Assembly: GCA_012517765.1 (NCBI GenBank)
Contig: JAAYUI010000003.1
Span: 124,001 to 188,000, forward strand
Direction of reading: 5' to 3'
DNA: 64,000 nucleotides
From: Caldisericales bacterium
GTDB lineage: Bacteria > Caldisericota > Caldisericia > JAAYUI01
In this document: positions 3,136-59,377 of the stretch, in pieces
Numbering within the stretch: the stretch's first letter is position 1
How the letters are laid out: every line of letters starts with the position of its first letter
The notes under the pieces: generated by a model
Told to the model about the DNA's origin: nothing
What the model saw: only the letters and a program-made list of their open reading frames with translations
The model's database searches: none
Position numbers and translations under genes: made by a program

Positions 3136-3749
3136 TTTATATGGAAGTATTGCCTGAGCTTTTCGATTGTTTTTGGACCAACACCCTTTACCTCCCCCAA
3201 CTGGTCAAAGTTTGAAATCCTGCCCTTTGTTTTGATGAACCTTATTATTTCATTTGCAGTTTCTGCTTTAAGGTATGGGACTTTATCTAGTTTGTCAAAG
3301 GTTGCGGTGTTTATGTCGTCTGGGCCCGATCCATCCTTGTAGTTTGTATTGCTGGCTGGTTTTGGTTGAATCGAAATCATGCCGTTTTTTTGGGGTGCTG
3401 GTATGGATGGAGTTTGGATGTATGGTTTTGTCTTTTCCAGGAACTGGAATCTTTGTGCAAGAGAGGACTCAATCTTGTTCTGCAAATCGATCATGGAGTC
3501 GATCTGTATTCGTGCATCTGTTACAGCGATGACCCTTTCCATTATGGGCCATCCAATTTTTGCCGATGCGGATTTTGCAAGCTCCAGATTATCTTCGTGG
3601 TGCACAGTGTCCATTTGTGGGAGCATTATTCCGGCGATTATTCCTATAGAACAGCCTGCCAGAAAACAAGAAAGGCCCCATAAAAGGGCCTTTCTTGAAT
3701 CTCTCGCTTCCTTCCTTTTGGTTGAAGTGGCAGGATGGTTTTTTGTCAT
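3132..3749 (-). CDS. comEA: ComEA-like helix-hairpin-helix DNA-binding protein with N-terminal membrane anchor
   Basis: C-terminus DDINTATFDKLDKVPYLKAETANEIIRFIKTKGRISNFDQLGEVKGVGPKTIEKLRQYF is a ComEA HhH domain; ATGA overlap with comEC start. Confidence 0.88.
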   Translation of the reverse strand: MTKNHPATSTKRKEARDSRKALLWGLSCFLAGCSIGIIAGIMLPQMDTVHHEDNLELAKSASAKIGWPIMERVIAVTDARIQIDSMIDLQNKIESSLAQRFQFLEKTKPYIQTPSIPAPQKNGMISIQPKPASNTNYKDGSGPDDINTATFDKLDKVPYLKAETANEIIRFIKTKGRISNFDQLGEVKGVGPKTIEKLRQYFHIK

Positions 3750-6700
3750 AGTTTCGGATAGGTGAGGGTTATTTTCTTCTCGGCGGCCTCGTACTGGACG
3801 TCGGCCCCAAGAGCATCACCAACAAACCTTAATGGAAGAAGCGTTTTTCCGCCAACTATTATTGGATAGAGCTTTTTGGCTTTTGAGTCTATAAATACTT
3901 CCTTGCCGTCTACCCTTGCCGTTTTCCTGCCAATCCACAACTCTATCTTTTTTGTTCCGGTTTCGAGTTTTTGAATCAGTGTTACACGTTTTTCCTTGCC
4001 ATCCCATTGTACTTCTACGCCTAGGGCCTTTGCGACCTCCGAGATGGGCATGAACGTCGATCCAGCAAGGTCTTTCGGAAGTGGTGGTGATGATGAGGTT
4101 GGGGCAGTAAGTAAAGCTACCGGACTTCCATTTACGAACATCTGCGTTTTTCCGAGCCAGAGCTGGATGATTGTCCTCTTCTTCAAAATAACGGTGACCG
4201 TGAGTGTTGTAGCTTTGCCTGTAAGGTCCGTTGCCTTGACTGTTATTTTGTTCGGGCCCTCCTTCAACGTTACTGTTTTCTGGAATTCCCTGTATTCATT
4301 TACCTGAAGCGGCTCACCGTTCAGGGTGACAGATGCTACTTCATCGACCCAACCTTTTATTTCAAGGGCCGGATCATTTACCATCATACCGTCTTCAATC
4401 CCAACAAGGCTTATTTCTGGAGGTGTGCTATCCCTTGTGATCGTTTTTCTTATTCCTGTAGAGCCGCCTGATTCATCAGTTGCGATTATGACAAAATTGT
4501 TCTTGCCTTCCCTTAACCTTGCTTCATACTCATAAGATCCGTCAGTTTTTACAGGAACAAACCTGCCATTGATTGTAAGTGTGATTGGATATTGCGGATC
4601 GCTGCTTTTGGCGATGCCTTTTATTACATAAATCTCCTGATCGACTATCACGTCATCCTTTAGGTCGGCCGTGAGAGTTGGTGGTGGGATCTGTGATATG
4701 ATGTCCATCGTTGCGGTTGAGCAGCCAATGTTTGTCAGGACCTTGTCGCCCTTTTCGCCATACATTGTCACATCACACACTTCAATCTGTGTTCCAAGCT
4801 TTGTCTGGCCCTTCACGCCCCTGAGAACCACCGAGAAAAGCTTTTCTTCGCCCTTTTTCAGTTCTGTTGATTTTATCTGTACAGTTGCAATCCCTTCGCT
4901 AGACCTGTCTATGAAGTCGTATGTTGTGTCTTTACTGGGGAAGAAGTCGCCAAGGCTTGTGTGGCTCACTGTTAGTACTGACGCATCATATCTTACGGAG
5001 AACCTTGCTTCCTTGATGCCTATGGGAGTGCTGATACTGATGTCGACCCTTGAGCTGTGGCAGGACTGGTTTTCAGAACAGCTGATGATCTTTTTTGGGT
5101 TGGCTTCCAGCAATAATCTTGCATAGAGCACTTCAACCGGTATCTCCATCTTGTGCTGCATCTCTTGTCCGCCAGTCGGGCTGCCTGTTGCCACGATGCA
5201 CATCTTGGTTTCAGATATCTGGAGCGCAGAGCCTCCTTCAGCAACCACATGGGCCTTGAAGGGTGGAATACCAGTGTTTGGTGTTATTGTTACCTTTATT
5301 GAGGCATTATCGGTGCAATTGCTGATACTTACTGGCCCGTCAAAGTCGTTTACGGGGTCTATGTTTATGTCGAACTCTGTTTTTGCTCCAGATGTCAGCT
5401 CAACCCTTGGTACTGGTGATGTGAAAGTAAAATCTGGTGGCAATCTCGGGATTGTCTCTATATTTGTAATGTTGTTCCTGTTGTCGATTGGACTTGAGCT
5501 TGTCCTGATATCAAAGGAGGCGGTGGTTCCTGGCTGGGCACCTTCAGGTGGAAGGGCCTTTATTGACACAACAGCACTTTGCATTGGTCTTAGCGGAATC
5601 TCGAAATTCTCCGCTTTCTGTTCTTTTCCATCGACTTGGATTATGTAGTCCCATCCAGCCGCTTTGATAACAGGGGAGCAATGTATTGGAAAGGAGTGCG
5701 TGCTTGTGTTTGTGACATAATATTTGAACTCAGCTTCCTTGTCGACTTCAAGTTTTATGTTTTTTGTCTGGGCCCTTACCGTGTACTGGTTAGTGACAGG
5801 CTGTTCATACAGATTGATATTTGAACCCTGGTAGATTTCCTTTGAATTGTTGTTCTGGATCCAGACCACAATGTTTGCGTTGTCCTTGTCGACCCACTGC
5901 GGGAGATTCAAAGTCATCTTTTTGTATATTGGTTGTCCTTCGACAAGAGTTATTGGTTCTCCAAGTGCCCCAGTGTACATCTCCCTGACCACCAGGTTGT
6001 GATATGCATCGCCATTTGTGGCTTCATAGGGTATGTTATTTTCTGCAAGTATAACGTACAGAGCGATATTTTTCTGGTTTTCAAATGCCTGGAGGGTTTC
6101 AATTTCAATGCCGAGTTCAACCTTACCGTCAAGGACTTCTGCCTCGGTAAAGATGGACAGCTGTGAAGAAGTGCTCTGCCTTCTTTCAACTTCAGCCTTG
6201 TACCTTAGATATGTGAAAGTTGTCCCGGAGAATTTGTCACATGACTTTTTGTCTTTTGGAGGTTTCTGTCTTTCATCTGGCGTATCACCGCCAACGATGG
6301 AATTTACTCCATCAATGAATGTTGTTGGAAGACCCTGACCAGGGTACCATTTGTATCTTTTGTCTGCGGGTGAATAATACAAATGGGCATCGTCTTCTTT
6401 TGAATCAACATAATACATCAGCCAGACAACCCTTTTATCACCAAACTCGTGAACCAGCCTTTCACCAGCCCTGTGTGCATAAGGGCAATTTATGCACCAA
6501 ACGGCAGTGAAGGTCTCGCCGATGGATGTTCTTGGTTCGAAAGACTGGTTTCTTGAGACAATCAGGGTGATGTCAAATCTTGTTTCATACTTTATCTTCG
6601 GGCTCTGGCCCGTGATTGTTATGTTGTAAATTCCAGGAGCAATGACTGTGGTCGCCCTTATCGACATGACGGTTGAGGTTGATTTTGAAAGCGTGAGCAG

Positions 6701-8965
6701 TGGCTCGGAGAACTGGATATAGGTTCCCCTTGGGGTTCCTTTCACGTCCAGTGCTGCTGTGCCAGTGTAGCCATTCTGCGCAACCAGGTTGATTACCAGG
6801 TCTATTCTGGAACTGGACTCTTTTGTGACAAAAGTGTTGGTATCGATGAGGAAACCATAGGAATCACCTATCTGGACTTTGAAGTGGACCGTTTTTGGCT
6901 GATCTTGTCCATCCTTGTTTGTGGCTATGGTCACATCTGTTTCATATGAACCTGCTGGAACGCCGTTGGAATCAACATAAAAAATGATTGGCTCTTCATC
7001 ATTCTTGAATGTCGGATTGTGTGTTTTAAGCCACTGTGCTTCTTTTGGTATTATGACAACCCCTGTAAGCGGGCCTCCGGATATGTTTTTGATATAAACA
7101 TTCCTCTCGGCTATTGAACCAGGGGAGATGAAGCCGAAATCAACATAAGATGGGGATACAAGATAGTTTGAGTCACCAAAAATGTCCGTAAAATCAACAA
7201 ATTGTACCCTGTGATTGTATGTATCGGACACAAAGCAACCCTGATCATTGACAACTATTCCCGACGGGAAATTGAATTTTCCGTATGCCACCTTATCTGG
7301 AGGAGGATCTTCGCAGATTGCCTCGGCAACGTATGGGACATCGCCTGGTCCACCATTCCTGCCGAAATTCCAGGAAAAATTTGTTCCAGGATCAAATACG
7401 GTCAATCTGTGGTTGTATGTGTCTGCAACGTATATCTTTCCAGAATTGTCCACAGAGCAGTCCATTGGGAATAGTAGCATGTCTTTCCCTCTGCCTCTGT
7501 GACCATAAGTCCTTATTGGTTTTCCTTCACCTGAAAGCTCCTGTATCCTGCAATTGGCAGAATCTGCTACGAATATGTTGTTGCCATTTGTGCAGATGCC
7601 CATCGGGTTGTTGAACTGGCCTGGTGCCGATCCAAAGCCGCCAAACTGGTACAGAAAATCACCAGAGAGTGAAAATACCTGTACAAGATTGTTCCCTGTG
7701 TCCGTTACGAACAGCTTGTTCTGGGAATTGATGATCGCAATATCTGATGGAATGTTGAGCTTTCCGTGTCCCGAACCCGTGCCGCCAAATGATTTTTTGT
7801 AAGTTCCATCCTTGTCAAAAACCTTTATCATATCATTTGCGGTATCTGCAACGTAGTAGTTCCCTGACAAATCGACACCAACGCCACTCGGCGAGCCCAT
7901 TTTTGAGTCAGAACCATCACTTTTTGACTCCTCTGACACTTTTCCATCTTTGGAGTATGAAATAATCTTGTTTCTGGCAGTATCGGCAACGTACAGTTTT
8001 TCATTCCCAATTGCAAGACCCACTGGTCTTCCAAGTGTACCCGTTGCCTGTTCGACGGGGTGGCCAAATGTCCCAGAGTGTCTTCCGTCAGTTTCAAAGA
8101 TTTCCACCCTGTTTGTTTCGTAAGAAGAGATATATATCTTGCCATCCATGAAGGCGACACCTTTCGGCGTCTTGATGAAACCGTTTGGTTGTATTTCGCC
8201 GGTTTGTGCGCCATCAAGCCCCACCATTATCACCTTGTTGGTTGATATGTCTGTTATGAAAACCTTTCCTTCAGTTGGAAAAACTGCCCATGGCATAGGA
8301 GAAGATATTGTTGTGGAGTGGTTCCCATCCTGATCAAAAACCACCACTTTGCCTGCTTCAGGATCAGTTACAAATATTTTCCCTGACGCAATGCATATTC
8401 CCGCAGGATAGAGAAGCTCTCCCTCGCCAAGGCCCTTTTTTGATATTCTTTGCACAAATTTGCCATTGGTATCGCATACTGCTATATTTCCTTCTCCTGA
8501 GTTGGCAATGTAGAGCCTTCCCTGGTAGGCAAATATGCCTGCCGGATTCACTAGGACAGTTTTTTGGTTCTGGTCTTTTACCTTGAATTCGCCCTGGTAT
8601 TCCCCCATTTTCCCATAAACGAGAATTTTGCTTTGTGCAGTGTCTGTGATGTAGGTTATTCCCTGGTAGGTTGTAACTCCACCTGGTTTGGACATCTGGC
8701 CGGTTTTGAAACCAAAAGTTCCCATTAGATAGTCATTTTGCGGAAACAATGACTGGACCCTTATGGCAAGTTCCTCAACAACATACAGTCTTGAGCCATC
8801 TGCGTGAAGGAATGTTGGGCCAAGGAAAAGTCTTGGTGATGCTGGTCCGCCTATTATTTGGGGGGAGGATGGGTCCTGTGATGCCTGTGAGGTCATTACA
8901 GGAACAAAGGGGGCCAGTGATGCGATTATTGCTATGGTTAGTGTTGTCGCCCATATTTTTTTCAT
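3746..8965 (-). CDS. Large secreted multidomain protein: NHL-repeat propeller, Ig-like, thioredoxin-like (WCINC), cohesin-like, Ig-like and stalk (copper amine oxidase N-terminal-type) domains
   Basis: 1739 aa; signal peptide MKKIWATTLTIAIIASLAPFVPV; repeated GxLxxPxGIA...VADTxNxRIxVF NHL units; FTAVWCINCPYAHRAGERLVHEFG; C-terminal paired stalk repeats (GGKTLLPLRFVGDALGADVQYEAAEKKITLTYPK). Confidence 0.85.
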   Translation of the reverse strand: MKKIWATTLTIAIIASLAPFVPVMTSQASQDPSSPQIIGGPASPRLFLGPTFLHADGSRLYVVEELAIRVQSLFPQNDYLMGTFGFKTGQMSKPGGVTTYQGITYITDTAQSKILVYGKMGEYQGEFKVKDQNQKTVLVNPAGIFAYQGRLYIANSGEGNIAVCDTNGKFVQRISKKGLGEGELLYPAGICIASGKIFVTDPEAGKVVVFDQDGNHSTTISSPMPWAVFPTEGKVFITDISTNKVIMVGLDGAQTGEIQPNGFIKTPKGVAFMDGKIYISSYETNRVEIFETDGRHSGTFGHPVEQATGTLGRPVGLAIGNEKLYVADTARNKIISYSKDGKVSEESKSDGSDSKMGSPSGVGVDLSGNYYVADTANDMIKVFDKDGTYKKSFGGTGSGHGKLNIPSDIAIINSQNKLFVTDTGNNLVQVFSLSGDFLYQFGGFGSAPGQFNNPMGICTNGNNIFVADSANCRIQELSGEGKPIRTYGHRGRGKDMLLFPMDCSVDNSGKIYVADTYNHRLTVFDPGTNFSWNFGRNGGPGDVPYVAEAICEDPPPDKVAYGKFNFPSGIVVNDQGCFVSDTYNHRVQFVDFTDIFGDSNYLVSPSYVDFGFISPGSIAERNVYIKNISGGPLTGVVIIPKEAQWLKTHNPTFKNDEEPIIFYVDSNGVPAGSYETDVTIATNKDGQDQPKTVHFKVQIGDSYGFLIDTNTFVTKESSSRIDLVINLVAQNGYTGTAALDVKGTPRGTYIQFSEPLLTLSKSTSTVMSIRATTVIAPGIYNITITGQSPKIKYETRFDITLIVSRNQSFEPRTSIGETFTAVWCINCPYAHRAGERLVHEFGDKRVVWLMYYVDSKEDDAHLYYSPADKRYKWYPGQGLPTTFIDGVNSIVGGDTPDERQKPPKDKKSCDKFSGTTFTYLRYKAEVERRQSTSSQLSIFTEAEVLDGKVELGIEIETLQAFENQKNIALYVILAENNIPYEATNGDAYHNLVVREMYTGALGEPITLVEGQPIYKKMTLNLPQWVDKDNANIVVWIQNNNSKEIYQGSNINLYEQPVTNQYTVRAQTKNIKLEVDKEAEFKYYVTNTSTHSFPIHCSPVIKAAGWDYIIQVDGKEQKAENFEIPLRPMQSAVVSIKALPPEGAQPGTTASFDIRTSSSPIDNRNNITNIETIPRLPPDFTFTSPVPRVELTSGAKTEFDINIDPVNDFDGPVSISNCTDNASIKVTITPNTGIPPFKAHVVAEGGSALQISETKMCIVATGSPTGGQEMQHKMEIPVEVLYARLLLEANPKKIISCSENQSCHSSRVDISISTPIGIKEARFSVRYDASVLTVSHTSLGDFFPSKDTTYDFIDRSSEGIATVQIKSTELKKGEEKLFSVVLRGVKGQTKLGTQIEVCDVTMYGEKGDKVLTNIGCSTATMDIISQIPPPTLTADLKDDVIVDQEIYVIKGIAKSSDPQYPITLTINGRFVPVKTDGSYEYEARLREGKNNFVIIATDESGGSTGIRKTITRDSTPPEISLVGIEDGMMVNDPALEIKGWVDEVASVTLNGEPLQVNEYREFQKTVTLKEGPNKITVKATDLTGKATTLTVTVILKKRTIIQLWLGKTQMFVNGSPVALLTAPTSSSPPLPKDLAGSTFMPISEVAKALGVEVQWDGKEKRVTLIQKLETGTKKIELWIGRKTARVDGKEVFIDSKAKKLYPIIVGGKTLLPLRFVGDALGADVQYEAAEKKITLTYPKL

Positions 8966-9050: not shown

Positions 9051-9132
9051 CCAAGCACAAACCATTGCCAGACTATGGTTAAACTACGTTCTGTTAATAC
9101 ATTTAACCTAACCCAAATTTTCCTTGTGAATC

Positions 9133-9160
9133 TTGTTTTTAACTACCCCTCAATTATACT
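9133..9160 (+). promoter_or_regulatory. Predicted promoter for the SLH/pseudo-nucleotidase gene (TTGTTT-16-TATACT)
   Basis: TTGTTT TTAACTACCCCTCAAT TATACT upstream of ATG 9216; short TCCGCA/TGCGGA hairpin in the leader. Confidence 0.5.
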
Positions 9161-9215
9161 CGGTTTCGCTAATCCGCACAAATGCGGAACCCTACCTTTA
9201 AAGGAGGATAAATTA

Positions 9216-19643: not shown

Positions 19644-19673
19644 TTGACAAACCATTTGGGCCTTGCTTATAAT
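19644..19673 (+). promoter_or_regulatory. Predicted promoter for tRNA-Asp (TTGACA-18-TATAAT)
   Basis: TTGACA AACCATTTGGGCCTTGCT TATAAT ends 15 nt before the mature tRNA 5' end. Confidence 0.7.
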
Positions 19674-19688
19674 ACGTGGACGTTTCGC

Positions 19689-19764
19689 GGGGTCGTGGTG
19701 TAGCGGTCAACACGCCAGCCTGTCACGCTGGAGACCGGGGGTTCGAATCCCCTCGATCCCGCCA
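19689..19764 (+). tRNA. tRNA-Asp (anticodon GUC), CCA encoded
   Basis: Acceptor GGGGTCG/CGATCCC, anticodon stem-loop CCAGC-CTGTCAC-GCTGG, T-arm GGGGGTTCGAATCCCCT. Confidence 0.95.
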
Positions 19765-19835
19765 ACTGACAACTCAAGAAAATCAAATCTCCCAAAAATC
19801 AGATCAAATTGAACAAATGGGCCTTCCTGAATTTG

Positions 19836-19863
19836 TTGACTGGATTGCGTTTCAATCTATAAT
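19836..19863 (+). promoter_or_regulatory. Predicted promoter for the first S8 protease (TTGACT-16-TATAAT)
   Basis: TTGACT GGATTGCGTTTCAATC TATAAT 27 nt upstream of ATG 19891 (which has GGAGG). Confidence 0.65.
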
Positions 19864-19890: not shown

Positions 19891-22800
19891 ATGAGACGCC
19901 ATCTCAGCCTTTTTCTTTTAGCGACCATAATCCTAATGGCACAGCCGGTCCATGCTGCCGAGAACAGGTCCGATATCTTTATGAACATGCTTGTTGTTCT
20001 GGATGGCAACACGGCATCGGATTTCCTGCCACAAAATTATGTGCAGACAAATTCAAGATCTCTGGATGTGTCTCTTGCTCTTGCAGGGCGCGAGACCATG
20101 AAGTCGGTAGAATCGTTCATTTTTTCGAATTGCCAGGGAATTGTTGATCGGGTTTATCAAAAATACAGCATTGTAACAAAAGGTTTTGCTTGCAAGATAA
20201 AAGCACAAAACATAAAAAAACTGTCTGGTCTCCCCGGAGTCAAAAGCATCGAGAGAATTCCTGATTACAAGCTTGATCTTGATACATCAACAACAGTCAT
20301 TGGCGCAAATGATGCCTGGAAAATGCTTGACCAGAACCGTCAGCCACTCACAGGAACAGGTGTTACAATTGGTGTCATAGATACCGGCCTTGATTGGCGC
20401 CACCCCGATCTTGGATCAAAGATGGGCTCAAAGGAAAAAGTGGTAGATGGTTATGATTTTGCTGATGGTGCTGACATATCAAATGATACAGAGCAGCATG
20501 GCACACATGTGGCCGGCATCTGTGCGGCAAATGGGAAAGTCAGGGGTGTTGCCCCAGGGGCCAATCTTGCAGGATACAAGGTTTTTACCAGCGAAAAGGG
20601 GAGATCGGTCAATGTTGGTGCCAACATTAATTCTGCCCTTGAAAGGGCGATTGTTTTCAAATGCGGGGTTGTGAACCTTTCGCTTGGTTCACCAGGAGGT
20701 AATTCTGGTAGTGAAGAGGGTAATTCGATTTACCACAGGGTTGTGAAGGCCGGCGTCGTTGTTGTGGCTTCCGCAGGCAATAATGGCTCACGCTGCCTTT
20801 ACCAGCCATATGTTGTGGGAACCCCAAGTACTTATGTGCCGGTAATTTCTGTAGCCGCATCTGATGACATGAAACACCCCGAGATCTTGGTCACGAATCC
20901 GCCAGGTGAAAACATGCGCATTCTCGGAAGAGAATTTGATCTTCCTCCTAAATGGCCCGAAGGCGAATGGGAAGTTATAGATTGCGGTTACGGATACCCA
21001 AAAGATTTTGAAGGTATCGATGTCAAAGGTAAAGTAGCCCTGATACAGAGGGGCCCCATAACTGACAAGAATGCATATTTCAGGGACAAAGACCTCAATG
21101 CTGCAAGTGCAGGAGCTGCAGGATGCATTATTTACAATCACAGCCCTGGCTCTTTTGCCGGCACCATGAAAATCGAGGATTCGGACATCGAAAAGAAATT
21201 CATACCAGCACTTGCAATCACAAATGTGCAGGGAATCAAGCTGCAGTCATTGATAAAAAAAGGCCTTAAAATAAAAGTGTCTTCAGGGACACCTTTCGGC
21301 CAGATAGCTGATTTCTCTTCCTCAGGACCCTCCGCCGATTACTATTTCAAGCCAGAGGTGACGGCACCTGGTGTTGGCATAAAAAGCACTGTAACCACCA
21401 AACCAAACAGTGCTGATCCGAAAAAAAGAGACCCGCAGTGGGCATCAATGCAGGGCACTTCGATGTCAGGGCCGCATGTTGCAGGGGCCTGTGCGATATT
21501 GAGGCAGGCATATCCAAAGGCCGAGCCGAAACAGATAAAGGCGATGTTTATGGCGACATGCGACCTGCTTCGAAATAACGAAGCCGGAGAGTATGTGCCT
21601 TTGATGTCACAGGGGTCTGGCAGAATAAACATACCTGCTGCAATTGGGGCCAAAATGACATTTGATCCGCCAGCGCTTTCTCTCAGGGCGATCTCAGGGA
21701 TAGTAAAACAGGCCTCATTCAAGGTGACCAATATTACCAGAAAACCGGTCGAATTTACCCTTAGTTATCACTCACTTGGAGACAACACAAAATGCAATTT
21801 TGACAGGGATACCGAAAAACTGAAACCAGGAGAGACAAAAACAATAAAAGCATCTTTTGAGTGTGATGACGGTTCAAAGGGTTTTCTCGAGGGGGTAATC
21901 TTTGCAAGCATGGGCAATGAAAATGTTCACCTGCCATTAATAATTCTTAACGGCTCTCCTGATGTCCCACCACAGGTTTCGGAACTAAGGATAAGCAGGC
22001 CAGTCATGACGCATGGCGATGGCAGTGAGGCAGGGACCACAATCAGCTTCAGGTTTAATTATGGTACATACATGTCAGGTGCCCCGGGTCAGGAAGTTTC
22101 ATCGAACTATGGTGCAGCAAAGGTAGTTCTTTACGATAACGAAGAGAACCCTTCAGGGAACATATTTTTTGATGATACACTGGAAATAGGCTATCACAAT
22201 ATTGTATGGAAGGGGCCAGATAACCTTGGCAGGCTTTTTGTGACAGATGGGAATTATGTTGTGAATGCATTTGGACTTTCAACAAGCTCCAATGGCGCCA
22301 TAGTGGAACAGTCTCCCCACCAGAAAAAACCAATTTCAATTGTTGGTGCACCGCTAAAAGAAAAACCCTTTGTGTTTGTGAAAAGTGTTCCTGAAAAACC
22401 GCGTCCCGAAGAACCTTTCTATTTGCTTGTAAGATCAAGCCTGATACCCAGCTTGTCTTCGATTACGATGGATATCGACATCGATCCGGCTTTTTACCAG
22501 ATTGTTACAATAAAAGCTGTAGATATCGCTGGTATTACAAAAGAAAACCTTGCATTTGAAAGCTCATTTGACAATGAAAGAGGCAAAGCGAACATAAAAT
22601 GTTTTACAAAAGATGGGTCTCCAGTGGATCAAAAGGGCACCATCCTTATCCTGGAGTGCATTTCACATCAGGAAGGCAATACGAGTGTTTCCATAAAAGA
22701 ATGCACCGCCAGCTCTTCTTTTGGTCAGATAGCACCTGTGCCGGGCAAAAAGGATTTTGAGATAAAGAAAGATTACAGTTTTTATGATTTAAACAGGGAT

Positions 22801-22965
22801 GGTGTTGTTGATGAACTTGACAGTGACATCCTCAGGAGCCATCTGGAGGAATCGGAGGGTGATCCAAATTACACTGAATCAATGGATTTTAATGGAGATG
22901 GACAAATTAATATAATTGATCTTATAATGCTTGCAAAACGCTATGGGCATACAATGTACCCATAG
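19891..22965 (+). CDS. Secreted S8 subtilisin-like serine protease with I9-like propeptide, PA insert, cohesin-like and C-terminal dockerin-like domains
   Basis: Triad motifs GVIDTGLDWRHPDL, QHGTHVAGI, GTSMSGPHVAGA; oxyanion ASAGNNGS; dockerin-like DLNRDGVVDELDSDILRSHL...DFNGDGQINIIDLIMLAKRYG. Confidence 0.93.
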   Translation: MRRHLSLFLLATIILMAQPVHAAENRSDIFMNMLVVLDGNTASDFLPQNYVQTNSRSLDVSLALAGRETMKSVESFIFSNCQGIVDRVYQKYSIVTKGFACKIKAQNIKKLSGLPGVKSIERIPDYKLDLDTSTTVIGANDAWKMLDQNRQPLTGTGVTIGVIDTGLDWRHPDLGSKMGSKEKVVDGYDFADGADISNDTEQHGTHVAGICAANGKVRGVAPGANLAGYKVFTSEKGRSVNVGANINSALERAIVFKCGVVNLSLGSPGGNSGSEEGNSIYHRVVKAGVVVVASAGNNGSRCLYQPYVVGTPSTYVPVISVAASDDMKHPEILVTNPPGENMRILGREFDLPPKWPEGEWEVIDCGYGYPKDFEGIDVKGKVALIQRGPITDKNAYFRDKDLNAASAGAAGCIIYNHSPGSFAGTMKIEDSDIEKKFIPALAITNVQGIKLQSLIKKGLKIKVSSGTPFGQIADFSSSGPSADYYFKPEVTAPGVGIKSTVTTKPNSADPKKRDPQWASMQGTSMSGPHVAGACAILRQAYPKAEPKQIKAMFMATCDLLRNNEAGEYVPLMSQGSGRINIPAAIGAKMTFDPPALSLRAISGIVKQASFKVTNITRKPVEFTLSYHSLGDNTKCNFDRDTEKLKPGETKTIKASFECDDGSKGFLEGVIFASMGNENVHLPLIILNGSPDVPPQVSELRISRPVMTHGDGSEAGTTISFRFNYGTYMSGAPGQEVSSNYGAAKVVLYDNEENPSGNIFFDDTLEIGYHNIVWKGPDNLGRLFVTDGNYVVNAFGLSTSSNGAIVEQSPHQKKPISIVGAPLKEKPFVFVKSVPEKPRPEEPFYLLVRSSLIPSLSSITMDIDIDPAFYQIVTIKAVDIAGITKENLAFESSFDNERGKANIKCFTKDGSPVDQKGTILILECISHQEGNTSVSIKECTASSSFGQIAPVPGKKDFEIKKDYSFYDLNRDGVVDELDSDILRSHLEESEGDPNYTESMDFNGDGQINIIDLIMLAKRYGHTMYP

Positions 22966-23026
22966 ACTAGCATAAGCATTTCGTTTTGGTATAATTCTTA
23001 CGCGAAACCAGATTTAAGGAGCTTCA

Positions 23027-26000
23027 ATGAGAAGATACCTAGTTTGGGCTGTGATTTTTGTTCTCTCGGCAGGCCTTTTCCCGATTGGCCGTGTTTTGTC
23101 AGCTTATGACATCTACCTGATTACCGTAGAAGGCGGATCGGCTTACAAAATGGAGGCTTTGGGTTTTCCCCCGGCCCATTCTGGGCTTACATCGAAAATT
23201 CTGCTGGCCAGCGCAAAGGAAGCCATCAAAAAAAATTGCCGCTCTGCCATATTTAGGTTTGATTTTGACTACCTTTTTACTGGCATGTCTTTAGAACTTG
23301 ATGAACAAGATGCCTGCATCGCAAAAAATATGCCTTTTGTCAAATCAGTAATGAAGATTGGAAAACTCGAACCAGCAGCTGTAAGATCTGTTGCCGAGGT
23401 TGTTGGGGCGTCCCAGCTTTATGAAATCAAGGATCAGAAGGGTAATTTTGTTAACGGTAAAGACATTCTTGTTGGTGTAATTGATTCTGGAATTGACTAT
23501 AGACACCAGGACCTCGGAAATGGGATGTATGGGCCAGGTGCAAAAGTAATTGGTGGAACAAATTTTGTTGAACCAAAAGATCCGCCGCTTGATGATGAAG
23601 CAATGGGACACGGGACTTCGGTTGCCGGGATAATTGCTTCGGACAACACAAAAGCACCCGGTATCGCTTCTGGTGCAAAAATGATGTCCTACCGTGTTTT
23701 TTCAAACAAAAATCCTGAAGTAAGGGAAGATGTTGTTGTTGCAGCAATTCAGGCCGCCGCCAAGGACGGATGCAAAATAATCAACATTTCCCTTTCAAAA
23801 CCTGGAGGAAGTTCCTCCGAGCTTTCCGCCTCCGCATATGCCGCAGAACAGGCAACAAAGGCTGGTATTTCAGTTGTTGGATCAGCTGGGGATTTTGGTT
23901 CGTTTTGTGATGGCGTTGAGGGTGGTACTGTTGGTGGGCCGTCTGTTTCACCCAATTCCATATGTGTTGGCTCTTCGGACACCAGGCCTGTGTGCAAGGT
24001 AAAAATTGAAGGCTCAAGCAGAAATGTTTTTGGAATGATGTCGGTCCCCCTCATTTCTTTTTCCAATCCCCAATCCATAGAGCTGGTTGATGGCGGATAT
24101 GGGTCCGAAGAGGAGTTTTCGAAAACCAATGTTCTTGGGAAGTATGTTCTCATAAAAAGAGGCCCGGAAGTTGGTGAAGCAATACCGTTTTTCCAGAAAC
24201 TCCTGAATGCCAAAAAAAGGGGTGCCGTTGGTGCGATTGTCTGGAACCACAGTCTTGGAGAGGTTTTCCAGATGTTTGTTGGTTTCAATTCGATAACTGG
24301 CGAGCCAATAAGAAATGAAGAGCTTGTCCCATCATGTTTTATAGGGAATTCTGACGGATTGTTTCTCCAAAAGCTTGTTTCAGGACAAGAAGCAAGAGTT
24401 TCCATTGCAGAGGAAAACATAGACACCATAGCAAGAATGACGGCCATAGGACCAACATCGGACCTTATTTTCAAACCGGATGTCTGCGCTCCTGGAATTG
24501 GAGTACCGGCGCCTGTTTCCACAAACTCTGCTGATGGGAACACGTCAAAATATACGCAAAACTTCTCCGGGACTTCTGCAAGTGCAGGGATTGTTTCTGG
24601 AGCTGTTGCGCTCATAAAACAGATCAATCCTGACTGGTCACCATCTGACATCAGACTGGCGCTTATGAATACGTCAAAGCTTTTAATCAATCCCGCAACA
24701 GGCGAATATTCCAGCATGCTTTTACAGGGTGCAGGGCAGATAAATGCAAAGATGGCAGCATTTACGCCATGCGTTGTTTCGCCTGGCGGGTTAATAGTCA
24801 CAAAAGACAAATCAAAGGACATAAAACTCACATTCAGTGGCCTTGGCTCGGATGCAAGCTTTAAGGTAAGGTTTGAGGTACTAAATAAACTTGACGATTA
24901 TGTTAAGTTCACTGGACAGGATACAGTGGTCGTATCCGGAAAGAGTGAGGCAACATACACCTTCACCATTGATTATTCAGCCACTGATATACCCTGGAAT
25001 GCTGAATGCATAATATGGTTTGAGAGTGACAAAGCAAAATTGCATGTGCCCGTTATTTGCTGGAAGGGTTATTCCACAAGCGAAAAAAGAAACATAACAT
25101 CGCTCAGAGTAACGGGCAATAACATAGATTATGGCGGAAAGGGCGACAAGGTTACCATAGAGTTTGGCATGGCAATGGGCGACAGATTTACATACAAGCC
25201 ACTTTCCTACAAGACAAAAACTGATGAGGAGGCCCCTCAACCCAGAGAAACAATGATTTCTGGTGTCCAGTTTGATCTTATTGATGGCAATGGTGACACC
25301 TGGGTAACAATTAAGCGCTTCGAAAACACCCAGTATGGCTATTACAAATTTGACTGGTCTGGAGAAGACGCCGAGGGTGCCTACTCGATACCTGATGGTT
25401 CCTATGGACTGAAGATTGTTATCAGCGAAACAGTTTTGGAGCCCGGAAGCGCGAAACTTAAGACGAAAAACTCATCACAACTGGCCAGGGACACTATCAG
25501 GATAAAGGGCAGTAAAGTACAGAGTCCACCAAAATTCTTCATGGTTGCACAGCCGCACACCCCGTCTGCCAACCAGAAAGTTCTTGTTGATTGCTATGTT
25601 ACATTTGCAAAAGACATATCGTCCCTTAGCTTCAATGTGTCATACAATCCAGATGAAGTCGAGATACTTCAGGTTTGGCCAGGAAGGTTCCTCCAGTCAG
25701 ACGGCTCGCCAGTCGAATCGGATGTATACCTGGACAAGCTCAATGGTAAAATAAAGGTTATCTCCAAGAGGGCAAACCAGACAGGTATTGATGGACATGG
25801 CATTATCCTTAGGTTCCTTGCCACTTTCCCCAATCCATCAGCTCCAACCATCAAGTTTGATGATCTCAATCCTTATGATCCAAGAGGAAGATTTATCCCC
25901 CACATGGGTTTCCCGCTAGAGCTTGAGGTGACTGATGCCGAGCCTTTACTTGGTGACCTCAATTTCGATGGAATTGTAGACATTGAGGATTATTTTATTT

Positions 26001-26128
26001 TTGCGCAATCATATGGCTCAAGAAGGGATGAGTTACACTACAACCCACTTGCTGATTTTAACTCGGATGGTATTATTGATTTTGAAGATTTGAAAGTATT
26101 GCTTAACAATCTTGGCAAAAGTGAGTGA
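23027..26128 (+). CDS. Secreted S8 subtilisin-like protease (Asp at oxyanion position) with cohesin-like and dockerin-like domains
   Basis: VGVIDSGIDYRHQDL, GHGTSVAGI, FSGTSASAGIVSG; VVGSAGDFGS; C-terminal DLNFDGIVDIEDYFIFAQSYG...DFNSDGIIDFEDLKVLLNNLG. Confidence 0.9.
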   Translation: MRRYLVWAVIFVLSAGLFPIGRVLSAYDIYLITVEGGSAYKMEALGFPPAHSGLTSKILLASAKEAIKKNCRSAIFRFDFDYLFTGMSLELDEQDACIAKNMPFVKSVMKIGKLEPAAVRSVAEVVGASQLYEIKDQKGNFVNGKDILVGVIDSGIDYRHQDLGNGMYGPGAKVIGGTNFVEPKDPPLDDEAMGHGTSVAGIIASDNTKAPGIASGAKMMSYRVFSNKNPEVREDVVVAAIQAAAKDGCKIINISLSKPGGSSSELSASAYAAEQATKAGISVVGSAGDFGSFCDGVEGGTVGGPSVSPNSICVGSSDTRPVCKVKIEGSSRNVFGMMSVPLISFSNPQSIELVDGGYGSEEEFSKTNVLGKYVLIKRGPEVGEAIPFFQKLLNAKKRGAVGAIVWNHSLGEVFQMFVGFNSITGEPIRNEELVPSCFIGNSDGLFLQKLVSGQEARVSIAEENIDTIARMTAIGPTSDLIFKPDVCAPGIGVPAPVSTNSADGNTSKYTQNFSGTSASAGIVSGAVALIKQINPDWSPSDIRLALMNTSKLLINPATGEYSSMLLQGAGQINAKMAAFTPCVVSPGGLIVTKDKSKDIKLTFSGLGSDASFKVRFEVLNKLDDYVKFTGQDTVVVSGKSEATYTFTIDYSATDIPWNAECIIWFESDKAKLHVPVICWKGYSTSEKRNITSLRVTGNNIDYGGKGDKVTIEFGMAMGDRFTYKPLSYKTKTDEEAPQPRETMISGVQFDLIDGNGDTWVTIKRFENTQYGYYKFDWSGEDAEGAYSIPDGSYGLKIVISETVLEPGSAKLKTKNSSQLARDTIRIKGSKVQSPPKFFMVAQPHTPSANQKVLVDCYVTFAKDISSLSFNVSYNPDEVEILQVWPGRFLQSDGSPVESDVYLDKLNGKIKVISKRANQTGIDGHGIILRFLATFPNPSAPTIKFDDLNPYDPRGRFIPHMGFPLELEVTDAEPLLGDLNFDGIVDIEDYFIFAQSYGSRRDELHYNPLADFNSDGIIDFEDLKVLLNNLGKSE

Positions 26129-26144
26129 AGAAAGGGCAGTCTAA

Positions 26145-29100
26145 ATGAAAAAAGCGCTTGCATTGATTGTCGCAGTTGCCGTGCTGGCAGGTTTGCCAGT
26201 CATCATGGCTCGAAACACCGCCGCTTCAGATGTGAAGATCACAGTGGAGCAGATTTATGGTGTAATGCCTGAGTCCTACATCGGTTCGTTCAACCTTTCA
26301 GGCCCGAACACAGTGGAATCGGACTATTCAGTCGGCTACTATTACCCGATGTGTGCAATGAAGGTAACAAGTGGTGGCGACCTTATAGTTGCCGATACCG
26401 CCTACGGGAGAATCCATGTTCTTGATTCAGACCTTTCCCACAAGAGTGTTTTTGGATCCCTTGGGTTTGGTGATGGCAAATTCCAGTATCCTGTCGATTG
26501 CGCTGAAGATGGTGATGGCAACCTTTATTTTGTAGACATGTATAATTGCCAGGTTTCAAAATGGGACAAGTATGGCAAATTTCTCGGCGCTTTTGGCACT
26601 GAAGGCCAGGAAAACGGACAGTTTGTTGCACCAGGTGGAATAGCTGTTGACGCAGACGGCAACATTTATGTTTCTGATGGTCACACTGCCAGAATACAAA
26701 GATTTGATTCTGCATTTAAGTTCAAAAATCTTCTCAATGTTGGAACCGATACTGTTGCACTTGATTCACCAGGACCAATCAGGGTTGGCCCAAATGGGGA
26801 AGTGTTTGTTGCGGAAATGAAGAGCGGGACAATCTTCCAGTTCAAGCCATCAGGTGATTTTGTAAAGGCAGCAGTCAAATCGCCAGATGGAAAAACTCCC
26901 ATCTTCACAAAAATGGGTGCGTTTGAAGTTGACGCAAATGGAACATTCTACATTCTTGATCGTGCAAATGGCTCCAATGCAGTGAAGGTTTTTGACAAGG
27001 ATGGAAAAGAAAAAGCAACATTCCAGAACGTTGCTTCTGATGATGAATTCCTTGATGGCATTGCAATAAGCCCCAACAATGTTTACGTTCATGTTTACGG
27101 TTCAATAAATCCTGGGTCTGGCCCAATGATCGACAACCCGTTTATTGTTCCAAGCTCCCAGAGACTGATAAAATTTGACAAGGCCGGTTCTAAAAAAGGC
27201 GAGGAATCATATAACCCAATGCAGGAAGGTAGGGGGGGTAATATTACCTCGTGCGCTGTTACCTCGAATGGAACGCTCTATGCCGTTTCAAACATCAATG
27301 TTGCGCAGGGTGGCAAGTATACAAGCAAAATCCTGATCTGGGACGCAAAAGGCAGCTTCCAGAACTCAATCTCCACTGATGACCTTAGCTTGCCAAGCCA
27401 GGCACTGTTCTCTGATGTGGCAGTTGATTCTTATGATAATGTTTATGTTTCTGTCAATGAAGGTTTCAGGGGAGAAGTCCCAGGCTATATCCTAAAGATT
27501 GCAACTGGTTCTGAAATGCTTTCAACGCCAACTCCGGACTCAAAGGCTGCAATCTCCTACTCATCCGAACAGATTGGAAAGGGTGATCTTGGAACTCCGG
27601 CCGGTCTGTGTGTTGATCGCATGGACAACCTTTATGTTGCCGACAGGGCAAAACAGTCAGTAATCATTTTTACCAGCAAAGGCAGGAAAAGGGACGAACT
27701 TGGAGTCAATACCTCGCCAAGCAATGTCTCGGTTGATCCTTTCCGCAACATTGCCTGTGCAACAGACGGACAGATAGTTGTAATAGACAAAAAAGGCAGG
27801 GACGTTGCAAGCATGGGTGGTCAGGGAAGAAAACCCGGACAGCTCTATTATCCCCATGGAGTTCTTTTTGCAAACAATGGAGCAGTAATCGTTTCTGATG
27901 CAGAGAATGGAAGAATCCAGATCTTTGAACGCAAGGAAGGATCTGACTTTGCGGTGACATATACCTCACCGCGCATGTTCTATATCCCACAGGGTATGTG
28001 CTGGGGAAAAGACCAGAAGGTATATCTTGCAGACAATTTCCACAATGTAGTTTACAGGCTTAACATCAACGGCTACACACCACCAGGAATTGGTGAATCT
28101 GGCCCAGAGCCCCCCCTTCCGCCACAACCACCGGCCCCACAGAACATCCCGTCAGATGGCGAGATCTATTTCCAGCCATCAGACATAAAAATTCCTTCAG
28201 GCGGATCAACAGACGTCAATATAAGCATCAAGTATGCGTCAAATGTTTATGGTGTAGGCATGACATTGAAGTATGATCCGCAGTACCTCCAGCTCGACAA
28301 GTGTGAGCAGGGTAACTTCCTTTCCTCAGATGGAAACAAGAACCTCTTCATCTATAAAGACGAGCCAAAAGGCACTGTCAAGATTGGTGGCCCAACAAGA
28401 ACATCTGCTGTTGCCGGAATGAATGGTGAAGGAATACTAATCAAGGTCCGTTTCACAGGCGTCAAGGAAGGCGACACAAAGCTTGAAGTATCAGAAGTAT
28501 TGGTCAAGGACCCTGACCTTAACAACATCCAGGTCTCGGTTACCAATGCAAAAGTCAAGGTGATGCCAAAAGATGGCACACCACCGCCAGTGAATTTCAC
28601 AGCCCCAAAATGCTCCTGGGATGCCTCGTTTACTGGTTCGGGAACAACTGAAAAAGACGCCAAACTTACCCTCAAGACAATTGATGGAACACAAGACATC
28701 AAGGTTGGTGCAGATGGAAGCTTCAAGTTTACAATAAACCTCAAAAAAGGCGCCAACAGCTTTACGATTACTGCCACTGATCCAGCAGGCAATTCCAAAG
28801 ACTACACCTTTACAGTAAATCAGGCCACCAGGAATGTCGTTGTAATGTGGGTTGGAAAGCTTGTCTACATGGTCAACGGTTCAAACATGAACCTTAACGC
28901 CGCCCCACAACTTATTGGCGGTTCAACTTATGTTCCAATGCGTGATCTTGGAAATGCTCTCAGCTGTGTTGTTGACTGGGACGCCAAAGAGAAGAAGGCA
29001 ACATATACATACACAGATCCATGCTCCGGATCACAAACTGTTCTCGAAGCCTGGATTGACAAGACCATGGGAAGATTGAATGGCAATCCACTTGATTTTG

Positions 29101-29228
29101 GCAAGGCGCCCAAGATAATTGGTGGAAGGACACTTGTCCCGCTTCGTGCCATCTCGTCCGGTCTCGGTGCTGATGTGAAGTATGAGGCTTCAAGCAAGCA
29201 AATAACAATCACCCACCCGAAGCCCTGA
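26145..29228 (+). CDS. Secreted NHL-repeat protein with cohesin-like domain, Ig-like domain and C-terminal stalk (copper amine oxidase N-terminal-type) domain
   Basis: NHL units (GFGDGKFQYPVDCAEDGDGNLYFVDMYNCQVSKWDKYG), cohesin-like SGGSTDVNISIKYASNVYGVGMTLKYDPQYLQLDKCEQGNFL, stalk motifs IGGSTYVPMRDLGNALSCVVDWDAKEKKATY and IGGRTLVPLRAISSGLGADVKYEASSKQITITHPK. Confidence 0.9.
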   Translation: MKKALALIVAVAVLAGLPVIMARNTAASDVKITVEQIYGVMPESYIGSFNLSGPNTVESDYSVGYYYPMCAMKVTSGGDLIVADTAYGRIHVLDSDLSHKSVFGSLGFGDGKFQYPVDCAEDGDGNLYFVDMYNCQVSKWDKYGKFLGAFGTEGQENGQFVAPGGIAVDADGNIYVSDGHTARIQRFDSAFKFKNLLNVGTDTVALDSPGPIRVGPNGEVFVAEMKSGTIFQFKPSGDFVKAAVKSPDGKTPIFTKMGAFEVDANGTFYILDRANGSNAVKVFDKDGKEKATFQNVASDDEFLDGIAISPNNVYVHVYGSINPGSGPMIDNPFIVPSSQRLIKFDKAGSKKGEESYNPMQEGRGGNITSCAVTSNGTLYAVSNINVAQGGKYTSKILIWDAKGSFQNSISTDDLSLPSQALFSDVAVDSYDNVYVSVNEGFRGEVPGYILKIATGSEMLSTPTPDSKAAISYSSEQIGKGDLGTPAGLCVDRMDNLYVADRAKQSVIIFTSKGRKRDELGVNTSPSNVSVDPFRNIACATDGQIVVIDKKGRDVASMGGQGRKPGQLYYPHGVLFANNGAVIVSDAENGRIQIFERKEGSDFAVTYTSPRMFYIPQGMCWGKDQKVYLADNFHNVVYRLNINGYTPPGIGESGPEPPLPPQPPAPQNIPSDGEIYFQPSDIKIPSGGSTDVNISIKYASNVYGVGMTLKYDPQYLQLDKCEQGNFLSSDGNKNLFIYKDEPKGTVKIGGPTRTSAVAGMNGEGILIKVRFTGVKEGDTKLEVSEVLVKDPDLNNIQVSVTNAKVKVMPKDGTPPPVNFTAPKCSWDASFTGSGTTEKDAKLTLKTIDGTQDIKVGADGSFKFTINLKKGANSFTITATDPAGNSKDYTFTVNQATRNVVVMWVGKLVYMVNGSNMNLNAAPQLIGGSTYVPMRDLGNALSCVVDWDAKEKKATYTYTDPCSGSQTVLEAWIDKTMGRLNGNPLDFGKAPKIIGGRTLVPLRAISSGLGADVKYEASSKQITITHPKP

Positions 29229-29237
29229 TAGAATCTC

Positions 29238-29268
29238 AAAAGGGAGGCCCTTTGGCCTCCCTTTTTTT
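29238..29268 (+). terminator. Rho-independent terminator after the NHL/cohesin/stalk gene
   Basis: AAAAGGGAGGCC CTTT GGCCTCCCTTTTTTT. Confidence 0.85.
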
Positions 29269-29286
29269 ATACACATGGAGGGGGAT

Positions 29287-32200
29287 ATGAAAACAACACT
29301 CAAAAATACGGTTATAGGTCTAATAATTTTTTCCATACTTCTTTTTTGCGGCCCTTCCTTTGCGGCCCAAAATTATGGGTTTGCAAAAATAGATAGCGCC
29401 CTGATTGGCAAAACAGGAACTGTCAATGTTATAATAATCACCGGAGACAAAACGGTGGTTGATTATGTTGGCAATCTTTCTTACTCTAACAAATTTTTGC
29501 AGCGAACAGTTGAGTCCTGCATTAATAACTCAGTTGAGAATGCATATCTTAGGTGCAAGGCCACATTTCCCAATATCAAAAAAAGATGGGTTTTTAATAT
29601 TGTAATCAATGGTTTTTCATGTGAGATTGATGCTAGTAAACTGAGAGAGCTTGCCAGGCTGCCTTCGGTCAAAAAGATTGTGGATGCGACATTCAAATAT
29701 GAAATGCAAATAAACAAACATCTACCCTATCTTGGTGTAACAAAACTAAGGCAAACGGGAGCTCCTGATGGCAAAAAGATAACCGGCAATGGCATAAGGG
29801 TTGGTGTTATTGACAGTGGAATAAACTACAAGCATCAGGCACTTGGAGATGGCTGGAGTAAAAGGGTAAAATTTGGATACGATTTTGCTGATATGGATTC
29901 AGATCCGCTGGACTTTATGGGACATGGTTCCCATTGCGCCGGCATTATTGGCGCGAATGGGAAGTTTGCTGGAAATCCGATAACAGGTGTTGCCCCGGAT
30001 GTAAATTTTGGCGCATACAAGGTTTTTACCGTCAACGAAGGTGGAGCAAGGCCGGACAATGTAGCAGCAGCACTTGAAATGGCAGCAAAAGATAAATGCG
30101 CTGTTGCAAATATGTCTCTTGGGAGGGCTCTTTATTATGGCGGTGAGAATGAAGTTGAAGACCAGGCGATAAAAAATGCCACAAAGGCCGGGATGCTCGT
30201 TGTTGTAGCTGCTGGAAATGATGGCTACCGTTCGGACAGATTGCCATTGCCGATAGGTGTTCCTGCAGTCACCGAGGAAGCTCTCTGTGTTGCAGCAACT
30301 GACGAGCGTGGCAAATGCCTTATTGAAGTAATGACAAAAACTGGTGAAACAAAAAAGATGCTTACAAACAACCATATATGGGGTCTCCCGTCAATAAATC
30401 CGGATGATGCCCTTTACGAGGTTGTGGATGGTGGTTCAGACCCCAACAAAATCCCTGATTGTGCTGGCAAGGTGTTGGTAGTCAAATACAAGGACAATGC
30501 CAGAAGCTGGCACAGAACGGAAACCTTTGATTTCATCAGAAAACTCAAGACAATCAAGTGCAAGGCATTCATTTTCTGGTCTGATGGTTTTGATGGGACA
30601 CCGTTCACGCTGTCCTTCTTTGACAGTTTTGAAGACGCAATGACCTTTTCGGCCCCGATCTATACATTAAACAGAAGGGACGCAAAAATACTTCTTGATG
30701 CAGCAAAAGAAGGCCAGAAAATACATTTCAAAAGAATATCCTATCCTGGGGACTTTTCATCTACTGGTCCTTATCTTGGACCAAGGGGCCTTAAATTCAA
30801 ACCGGAAGTTTCTGCTCCTGGAATGTGGATTTTTTCTACAGTGTATGATGAAAAAAATCCAAAAGACGCCTGGGATTCATACTCCGGAACATCGATGGCA
30901 GCACCATTTGTGACCGGCATGGCAGCACTCGTAAAAAATTATCACCCGGACTGGCTGCCATGGCAAATCAAGGCCTCACTCATGAATACGGCCAAGTTCC
31001 AGATTAATCCCCTTAACGGTGATCCTTATCCGTTAGTGATCCAGGGGTCAGGGCTTGCAAATGTTTATGATGCCTGCACAACACCAGTGATCACGGACCC
31101 TCCAGCTTTCACTTTTCATGGTGGCAACTACAAAGAAGGCATCAAAATAAACCTTATCAATGTCGATTCAAAAAGGGCCACGGTAAAATTTACTTCCAAG
31201 GTGACATTTGTTGGAGATGTAGAAGGTGTCGACATATCAGTTACTCCATCAGGGGAAACAGTTTCACCACCTCCACAATCCTCTCCAAGGGACGCAACCG
31301 CCTCTCTTGATCTCAAGATCACCCTGGACAAACAGAAGGTTCCGAAAAACAGGGTGGTTGAGGGTTCAATTGAGATAAACATAGATGGTTCCACGCAAAT
31401 TCATGTTCCATTCATGGCGCTTTTTGGTGAAATTGAAATCTTCAACTCACTAAAATCATTCTCAAACATCCTTGTAGAGAACGACAAAATAGACATCTCG
31501 CAGGGTGAAAAACCAGGTATGGTAAAGTTCCATGTTGGTGTTGGCTCAAAATCGTTCTTCTGGGGAAACCAGTATGACAATTTTGCTTACATGATGAGAT
31601 TCTCTGTTCTGGACAAAGTTTTGGACAGGTGGAGAGACATTTATGAAGGCAACTATCTTGCCCCGGGTGATTACGAGTTTGAATGGGACGGGAAAGATCT
31701 CGACGGAGAGGCATTCTTGCCAAATGGTCCAAATGGCCTCGGAAGCTTCATGTATTACGAGGCGATTGTTGGAAGCATGCAAAACAAGCTTGTTGAAAGC
31801 TCGGTTCCAAGGGATGCCCAGGCCTGGGTGGAGGTCACTGGTTCGGACAAAATTCCACTTCCTGAACTCAACCTCAGCGTGAACCCTGAATTTGGAGCGT
31901 TGAATAAAACACTTACAGTGAAAATGTCACTTGCTCAGTCGAATCAGAACAAAGTCATAAGATTCTCCCTACTTTACGACTCAAAAATGGTAACATATAC
32001 TGGCCAATACAGAAGAGGTTCCATGACGGAGGACTCAACCAGCATCATGGTTTCAATTGAGGACAACCAGGATGGAAAGATGACTGTTGAAATTTCACCT
32101 GCTTATGCTGGCATAACAATGGATGGAACAGGCGATCTTCTCGAGATTGATTTTGTGTGCAACAGAATTGGCGGAACAGAATTTGACACCTCATTTGTGG

Positions 32201-32475
32201 AAGTACTTGACAACAACATTAAAAACATTAGATTCGTAAGACCGTTGCCAGTTGAGGTGTTGATAACCGAACGCTATCTTTTGATAGGTGATTTCAACAT
32301 AGACTGGGTGGTAGACGACAAAGATCTTGTAATTTTTGGCCAGCAGTTTGGTAAAAAAGAGGGCGATCCCGATTACAACAAGCTGTGTGACATCAACAGG
32401 GACAAAATCGTCGACGAAAAAGATTTTATATACTTCTCTAAACATTTTGGAGAAAGAAGTGAGAAGCCGAAATAA
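29287..32475 (+). CDS. Secreted S8 subtilisin-like protease with cohesin-like and degenerate dockerin-like domains
   Basis: VGVIDSGINYKHQAL, MGHGSHCAGI, SYSGTSMAAPFVTGM, VVAAGNDGY; C-terminus DFNIDWVVDDKDLVIFGQQFG...DINRDKIVDEKDFIYFSKHFG; ATG 29287 preceded by GGAGGGGG. Confidence 0.92.
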   Translation: MKTTLKNTVIGLIIFSILLFCGPSFAAQNYGFAKIDSALIGKTGTVNVIIITGDKTVVDYVGNLSYSNKFLQRTVESCINNSVENAYLRCKATFPNIKKRWVFNIVINGFSCEIDASKLRELARLPSVKKIVDATFKYEMQINKHLPYLGVTKLRQTGAPDGKKITGNGIRVGVIDSGINYKHQALGDGWSKRVKFGYDFADMDSDPLDFMGHGSHCAGIIGANGKFAGNPITGVAPDVNFGAYKVFTVNEGGARPDNVAAALEMAAKDKCAVANMSLGRALYYGGENEVEDQAIKNATKAGMLVVVAAGNDGYRSDRLPLPIGVPAVTEEALCVAATDERGKCLIEVMTKTGETKKMLTNNHIWGLPSINPDDALYEVVDGGSDPNKIPDCAGKVLVVKYKDNARSWHRTETFDFIRKLKTIKCKAFIFWSDGFDGTPFTLSFFDSFEDAMTFSAPIYTLNRRDAKILLDAAKEGQKIHFKRISYPGDFSSTGPYLGPRGLKFKPEVSAPGMWIFSTVYDEKNPKDAWDSYSGTSMAAPFVTGMAALVKNYHPDWLPWQIKASLMNTAKFQINPLNGDPYPLVIQGSGLANVYDACTTPVITDPPAFTFHGGNYKEGIKINLINVDSKRATVKFTSKVTFVGDVEGVDISVTPSGETVSPPPQSSPRDATASLDLKITLDKQKVPKNRVVEGSIEINIDGSTQIHVPFMALFGEIEIFNSLKSFSNILVENDKIDISQGEKPGMVKFHVGVGSKSFFWGNQYDNFAYMMRFSVLDKVLDRWRDIYEGNYLAPGDYEFEWDGKDLDGEAFLPNGPNGLGSFMYYEAIVGSMQNKLVESSVPRDAQAWVEVTGSDKIPLPELNLSVNPEFGALNKTLTVKMSLAQSNQNKVIRFSLLYDSKMVTYTGQYRRGSMTEDSTSIMVSIEDNQDGKMTVEISPAYAGITMDGTGDLLEIDFVCNRIGGTEFDTSFVEVLDNNIKNIRFVRPLPVEVLITERYLLIGDFNIDWVVDDKDLVIFGQQFGKKEGDPDYNKLCDINRDKIVDEKDFIYFSKHFGERSEKPK

Positions 32476-36465: not shown

Positions 36466-36477
36466 GATTGCTCCTCC

Positions 36478-59341: not shown

Positions 59342-59369
59342 TTGAGTTAAAAAGCGTCCATGCTAGAAT
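59342..59369 (+). promoter_or_regulatory. Predicted promoter for the C25 protease (TTGAGT-16-TAGAAT)
   Basis: TTGAGT TAAAAAGCGTCCATGC TAGAAT, -10 ends 8 nt before ATG 59378. Confidence 0.5.
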
Positions 59370-59377
59370 TGTCTCAA

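Follow-up and report, generated by a model that had tools for sequence, protein, structure and literature searches.

Since 1999, cohesins and dockerins have been known to occur outside cellulosomes as well, but what they do there has mostly been unclear. Relatives of each single part of the arrangement described here are already on record, namely surface proteins of the OlpC/ScaG type, the ScaO/ScaP proteins, dockerin-bearing proteases and archaeal cohesin-dockerin pairs. OlpC (Cthe_0452) of C. thermocellum and ScaG of A. cellulolyticus likewise combine a single cohesin with PF07833 on a surface protein (PMC3413522), an architecture that we observe by Pfam in the window protein P0003 and on contig C138, and by profile in others. 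Compared to OlpC/ScaG, however, the Caldisericia anchors often carry NHL or PQQ propellers, their PF07833 domain is mostly C-terminal, and their clients are proteases, with no Pfam-recognised glycoside hydrolase among the examined dockerin proteins of the genome. ScaO/ScaP of A. cellulolyticus, C. alkalicellulosi and P. cellulosolvens likewise have a peptidase, a cohesin and a dockerin on one chain, the core of ScaO2 being Peptidase-Coh2-Doc1 (PMC6780208), but they occur as rare additions to large cellulosomes with GalOx, Rhs or PPC modules, whereas this is the main architecture in Caldisericia.

Dockerin-borne proteases also include dDoc_0689, an S8 protease of C. thermocellum with a double dockerin, and the X-dockerin cysteine peptidase of R. 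flavefaciens, which prefer cell-surface cohesins (PMC12484212, PMC5590126); unlike the Caldisericia enzymes, these are part of a cellulosome, and no cis cohesin (on the same chain as the dockerin) is described for them. In the cellulosome-like system of Ca. Stygibacter (Cloacimonadota), dockerins are likewise found on S8 and C25 proteases (PMC8542988), but there they accompany glycosidases and a single scaffoldin of 3755 aa that has CBMs and cohesins in tandem, whereas Caldisericia have single-cohesin anchors. The cohesins and dockerins of Archaeoglobus fulgidus and ANME archaea are likewise put to non-cellulosic use, and the archaea surveyed earlier are without many-cohesin scaffoldins (PMC9012536); unlike in Caldisericia, no conserved protease-anchor pair is described for them. 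Finally, the mucinolysome of Limousia applies the cellulosome principle to another substrate and has dockerin peptidases (PMC12997984), but it is built on classical multi-cohesin scaffoldins with mainly glycosidases, unlike the Caldisericia system. In the open papers searched, we found neither a description of a protease-centred system with one-cohesin anchors and a class-conserved gene pair nor a text naming Caldisericum and dockerin together.

The locus lies in a stretch of 64,000 nucleotides (the window; positions 124001-188000 of contig C35) within an assembly of 2.79 Mb in 236 contigs. The source organism is a Caldisericia bacterium, the closest public relatives being MAGs labelled "Caldisericia bacterium" and "Caldisericales bacterium" (84% identity for P0001). 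All ORFs sit where a preliminary description of the window had placed them, 3746-8965 being on the minus strand, although P0004 may begin at 29275 instead of 29287 (Table 1). The S8, PA, C25, NHL, PF07833 and dockerin domains of the window's proteins are all matched by Pfam, and the D, H and S catalytic motifs, read directly in the sequences, are kept in the S8 domains of P0001, P0002 and P0004. The promoter-like sites upstream of the cluster match 12/12 (19644-19673) and 11/12 (19836-19863), with total scan matches near chance. P0006 has a paralogue of 1863 aa on contig C212 of the same genome.

Table 1. Features of the protease-anchor cluster and of related proteins in the window.
Feature	Position	Strand	Domains	Basis
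P0001, S8 protease 1	19891..22965	+	Signal peptide; S8 ~20353-21573 with PA insert; C-terminal cohesin 22408-22716, dockerin 22783-22947	Domain searches; catalytic motifs read directly
P0002, S8 protease 2	23027..26128	+	S8 ~23456-24676; cohesin 25571-25882; dockerin 25952-26116	Domain searches; cohesin fold modelled
P0003, anchor protein	26145..29228	+	NHL propeller 26265-28124; one cohesin 28200-28514; Ig-like domain; PF07833 stalk (cell-surface-binding-type domain) 28836-29216; no dockerin	Domain searches; cohesin fold modelled
P0004, S8 protease 3	29275..32475	+	S8 ~29767-31107; cohesin 31903-32217; dockerin 32287-32451	Domain searches
P0005, C25 protease	59360..61546	+	C25 ~59438-60697; degenerate cohesin-like domain ~61049-61288 (marginal); dockerin 61376-61531	Domain searches
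P0006, second anchor-type protein (1739 aa)	3746..8965	-	NHL propeller; Omp28-like domain; cohesin 4754-5050; PF07833 stalk 3758-4075; no dockerin	Domain searches
Two promoter-like sites upstream of the four-gene cluster	19644..19863	+		Consensus match only

The preliminary description had read cohesin-like and dockerin-like domains in three S8 proteases and in the C25 protease, and a cohesin-like domain with a stalk in the NHL protein and the 1739-aa protein. For the dockerins, whole-protein scans with Pfam Dockerin_1 (PF00404) return all four proteases, with E = 6.8e-11 for P0001 and E~0.003 for P0002, P0004 and P0005, while a class-built profile gives the latter three values of 1e-14 to 1e-22. 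Both calcium-loop repeats are present in the dockerins of the S8 proteases and, as judged by eye, in that of the C25 protease. Within these repeats (DxNxDGxxDxxD), positions 1 and 12 are invariant in both copies (30/30), positions 3 and 5 are nearly so, and the helices appear in the AF2 model of a P0002 fragment, giving the two calcium-binding repeats plus helices of a type I dockerin. The repeats agree at positions 10, 14, 17, 18, 19 and 22 in just 1-5 of the 30 sequences and hence do not show the symmetric recognition residues of a dual binding mode, which is no general requirement for dockerins. This asymmetry suggests that a single binding mode is the likelier one.

The cohesin of P0003 scores above the Pfam PF00963 cut-off (29.6 vs 24.1 bits, E = 9e-7), which is passed at five places in the window's genome. 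The cis cohesins of the S8 proteases fall below it: that of P0002 reaches E = 0.002, and those of P0001 and P0004 have no Pfam match in whole-protein scans and are matched by class-specific profiles only. A class-specific profile detects the cohesins of P0001-P0004 at 3e-17 to 7e-30 and that of P0006 at 4e-14, but as it was seeded from four of these window domains and then iterated, the independent support comes from Pfam, the PDB and the fold. In PDB profile searches, profiles of both cohesin groups match solved cohesins, and solved dockerins are also returned. For the beta domain of P0002 (AF2 model of the cohesin-dockerin part, 7-row alignment, mean pLDDT 74), the top Foldseek matches are all cohesins (E = 8.6e-7, TM by target ~0.6), the best being 2xdh of A. 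fulgidus and the second the OlpC cohesin 4dh2, while the modelled P0003 cohesin has solved cohesins as its top Foldseek matches with a TM of ~0.76. Both domains are thus predicted to adopt the cohesin jelly-roll. These PDB and fold matches led us to reject the possibility that the beta domains are something other than cohesins; in every S8 protease of the cluster, the domain ahead of the dockerin is a genuine cohesin that has diverged. For P0005, the earlier reading holds for the dockerin, which is sound, while the cohesin-like domain is only marginal (13 bits, with E = 1.9e-16 only when spanned jointly with its dockerin). Since other C25 proteins also mostly have no recognisable cohesin at this place, we do not count P0005 as a full cohesin-dockerin enzyme.

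The cohesin proteins fall into two near-exclusive classes, enzymes with a cohesin and a dockerin and anchors with a cohesin and a stalk. Among 106 cohesins in the fetched loci, 59 occur with a dockerin and no stalk and 45 with a stalk and no dockerin, while of the remaining two, one belongs to a C25 protein that has both and the other to a truncated frame that has neither; because loci were picked from cohesin or dockerin matches, these class frequencies, like those of the gene pair below, are no unbiased estimate. The 59 enzyme-type proteins come from all six families (f1-f6) and keep the order cohesin-dockerin with a spacing of 21-39 aa. For 33 of 44 anchors, a dockerin gene lies on the same strand at a gap of <=25 bp, with examples in each of families f1-f6, the commonest order being an S8-cohesin-dockerin gene followed by an NHL-cohesin-stalk gene. 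The pairing is simplest in f4, where most genomes have a single dockerin protein, an S8 protease adjoining the anchor (G036 is the exception), and two cohesins, one in the protease and one in the neighbouring anchor. The cohesin tree separates enzymes from anchors (6 changes vs 31.9 in shuffles, a contrast inflated by near-copies), and the two paralogous enzyme-anchor pairs of f3 each stay together in it. Dockerins without a detected cis cohesin also exist on HEXXH, C25 and f6 S8 proteins, meaning that a dockerin can do without a cis cohesin. A reversed gene order with another client is seen at four f2/f5 loci (L039, L041, L043 and L070), where the cohesin-stalk gene comes first (~480 aa; the L070 copy is annotated shorter) and is followed by a cohesin-dockerin gene of ~1030 aa whose product has no S8 match.

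A genome-wide count had been suggested in the preliminary description. With class profiles, we obtain twelve dockerin places and eight proteins with a cohesin and a PF07833-type stalk but without a dockerin, in an assembly marked as 5% contaminated, in which individual contigs, C21 for instance, could be of foreign origin. The dockerins belong to four S8, one C25 and two HEXXH proteins (the motifs of the latter, on C96, were read directly), three alpha/beta hydrolases of the BD-FAE type (two by Pfam and one, on C110, by eye) and two PQQ-propeller proteins. Among the eight proteins without a dockerin is a C25 protease on contig C82 (L073:1421-4099) with a cohesin and a stalk, which would be a surface-fixed enzyme that offers a socket. 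Across the class, Pfam dockerins are found in 46/49 Caldisericia genomes, including 23/23 high-quality ones, and Pfam cohesins in 40/49. In some of the nine genomes where Pfam finds no cohesin, G006 and G017 among them, the class profile does detect one, and the three without a dockerin, all of them incomplete, are also without a cohesin. Outside the class, the cohesin-dockerin profile has zero matches in 5 genomes belonging to a different class of this phylum. The arrangement is a class-wide system.

The earlier proposal that the proteases dock onto surface anchors fits the near-exclusive architectures, the conservation of the gene pair and the genomes with only one dockerin. We infer binding, a surface location and a peptide-feeding role, and we favour surface-tethered extracellular proteolysis as the probable function. 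Secreted S8, C25 and HEXXH metalloproteases would end in a calcium-dependent dockerin that plugs into the single cohesin of a propeller-bearing surface protein. The C-terminal PF07833 stalk, which together with signal peptides read by eye points to a surface location, would keep this anchor at the cell envelope, and a protease held there would free peptides beside the cell. The cis cohesin would be a diverged module ahead of the dockerin whose most likely role is that of a spacer or support; in some lineages it may also bind another dockerin. A wider version, in which an ancestral class-wide system for protein digestion combined one-socket anchors and cohesin-dockerin proteases, with separate jobs for the two cohesin types and, in some lineages, protease chains without a multi-cohesin scaffoldin, is put forward only tentatively.

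The same docking could also serve another purpose, with the protease acting in envelope processing or quality control and maturing or shedding the cell's own surface propeller proteins instead of feeding the cell. That almost all genomes of the class have kept one pair, which f4 has as a single copy, is consistent with such a task, and the S8 double-dockerin protease of C. thermocellum has been proposed to act in the turnover and maturation of cellulosome parts (PMC12484212). However, the expansion in f1 to several S8, C25, metalloprotease and esterase-like enzymes and the S8 expansion in f6 look degradative, and we regard this purpose as possible but somewhat doubtful; as it concerns purpose, its likelihood overlaps with that of the docking mechanism itself.

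A different use of the modules was suggested in the preliminary description, in which each protease binds, through its dockerin, to the cis cohesin of its neighbour, giving linear polymers that end on an anchor. Both modules are indeed present on the 59 enzyme-type proteins of all six families, the cis cohesins keep a predicted cohesin fold, and clostridial peptidase-cohesin-dockerin scaffoldins bind other dockerins, the ScaP cohesin binding Xyn10 (PMC4217186). Some cis cohesins, however, lie below Pfam detection, and the two cohesin types differ in where they are conserved. In 18 operon pairs, for which anchor and cis cohesins were sampled from the same genomes, the positions that correspond to dockerin contacts exceed the remainder of the domain in conservation in anchor cohesins (0.403 vs 0.350) but fall below it in cis cohesins (0.296 vs 0.329), a difference matched by 105/20000 random column sets. 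The reference is what we take to be the dockerin-contact positions of CipA cohesin 2 in the 1OHZ structure, a background list whose numbering mapped consistently on the reference. The inward-facing residues of the same strands also differ between anchor and cis cohesins, while strand 7 hardly does. Thus, the predicted binding sheet appears to be conserved in anchors and not in cis cohesins, which counts against protease chains without refuting them, and we consider them unlikely. Mirror-tree comparisons of the dockerin with the anchor and cis cohesins (partial r of 0.20 and 0.16) do not separate the two.

It is less probable still that the cohesin and dockerin of one chain bind each other, so that the C-terminal module is closed and has no trans partner: their strict adjacency and short spacing would suit such a pair, but dockerins without a cis cohesin and cohesins without a dockerin occur throughout the class, and the pairing in operons is with an anchor. 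An ordinary cellulosome, with a multi-cohesin scaffoldin, a carbohydrate-binding module and cellulase clients, is rejected, as the fetched anchors each have one cohesin, no multi-cohesin scaffoldin is found among the fetched proteins, and the 12 dockerin proteins of the window's genome look like proteases, alpha/beta hydrolases or propellers. The term "cellulosome-like" used earlier therefore applies in principle only, there being neither such a scaffoldin nor a carbohydrate-binding module among the examined proteins.

For docking on surface anchors, each module can be assigned, from the layout of the genome, a partner that is open to testing. The simplest natural case in this analysis is that of the f4 genomes, which have one dockerin and one anchor, and as the class has a cultivated member, Caldisericum exile, the pairing and its use are directly testable. 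If true, a whole class would be using the plug-and-socket principle to digest protein, and protein engineering would gain a supply of small pairs that may be heat-stable.

Elsewhere in the window, two large PQQ-propeller proteins with PF07833 stalks (33697-40596) follow rpoC on the same strand, and a protein of 2707 aa (51096-59219), assigned only in its Glucodextran_B domain and the PF07833 stalk at its C-terminus, lies upstream of rpoB. The order of the genes between them is unusual, with the elongation factor G gene (44695-46779) placed between rpoB (46792-50991) and rpoC (40735-44685) on the minus strand. At 9075-12980, the window encodes a 1301-aa protein with 5'-nucleotidase C-terminal and SLH domains, the latter being a different surface-anchoring module in the same genome as the PF07833 anchors.
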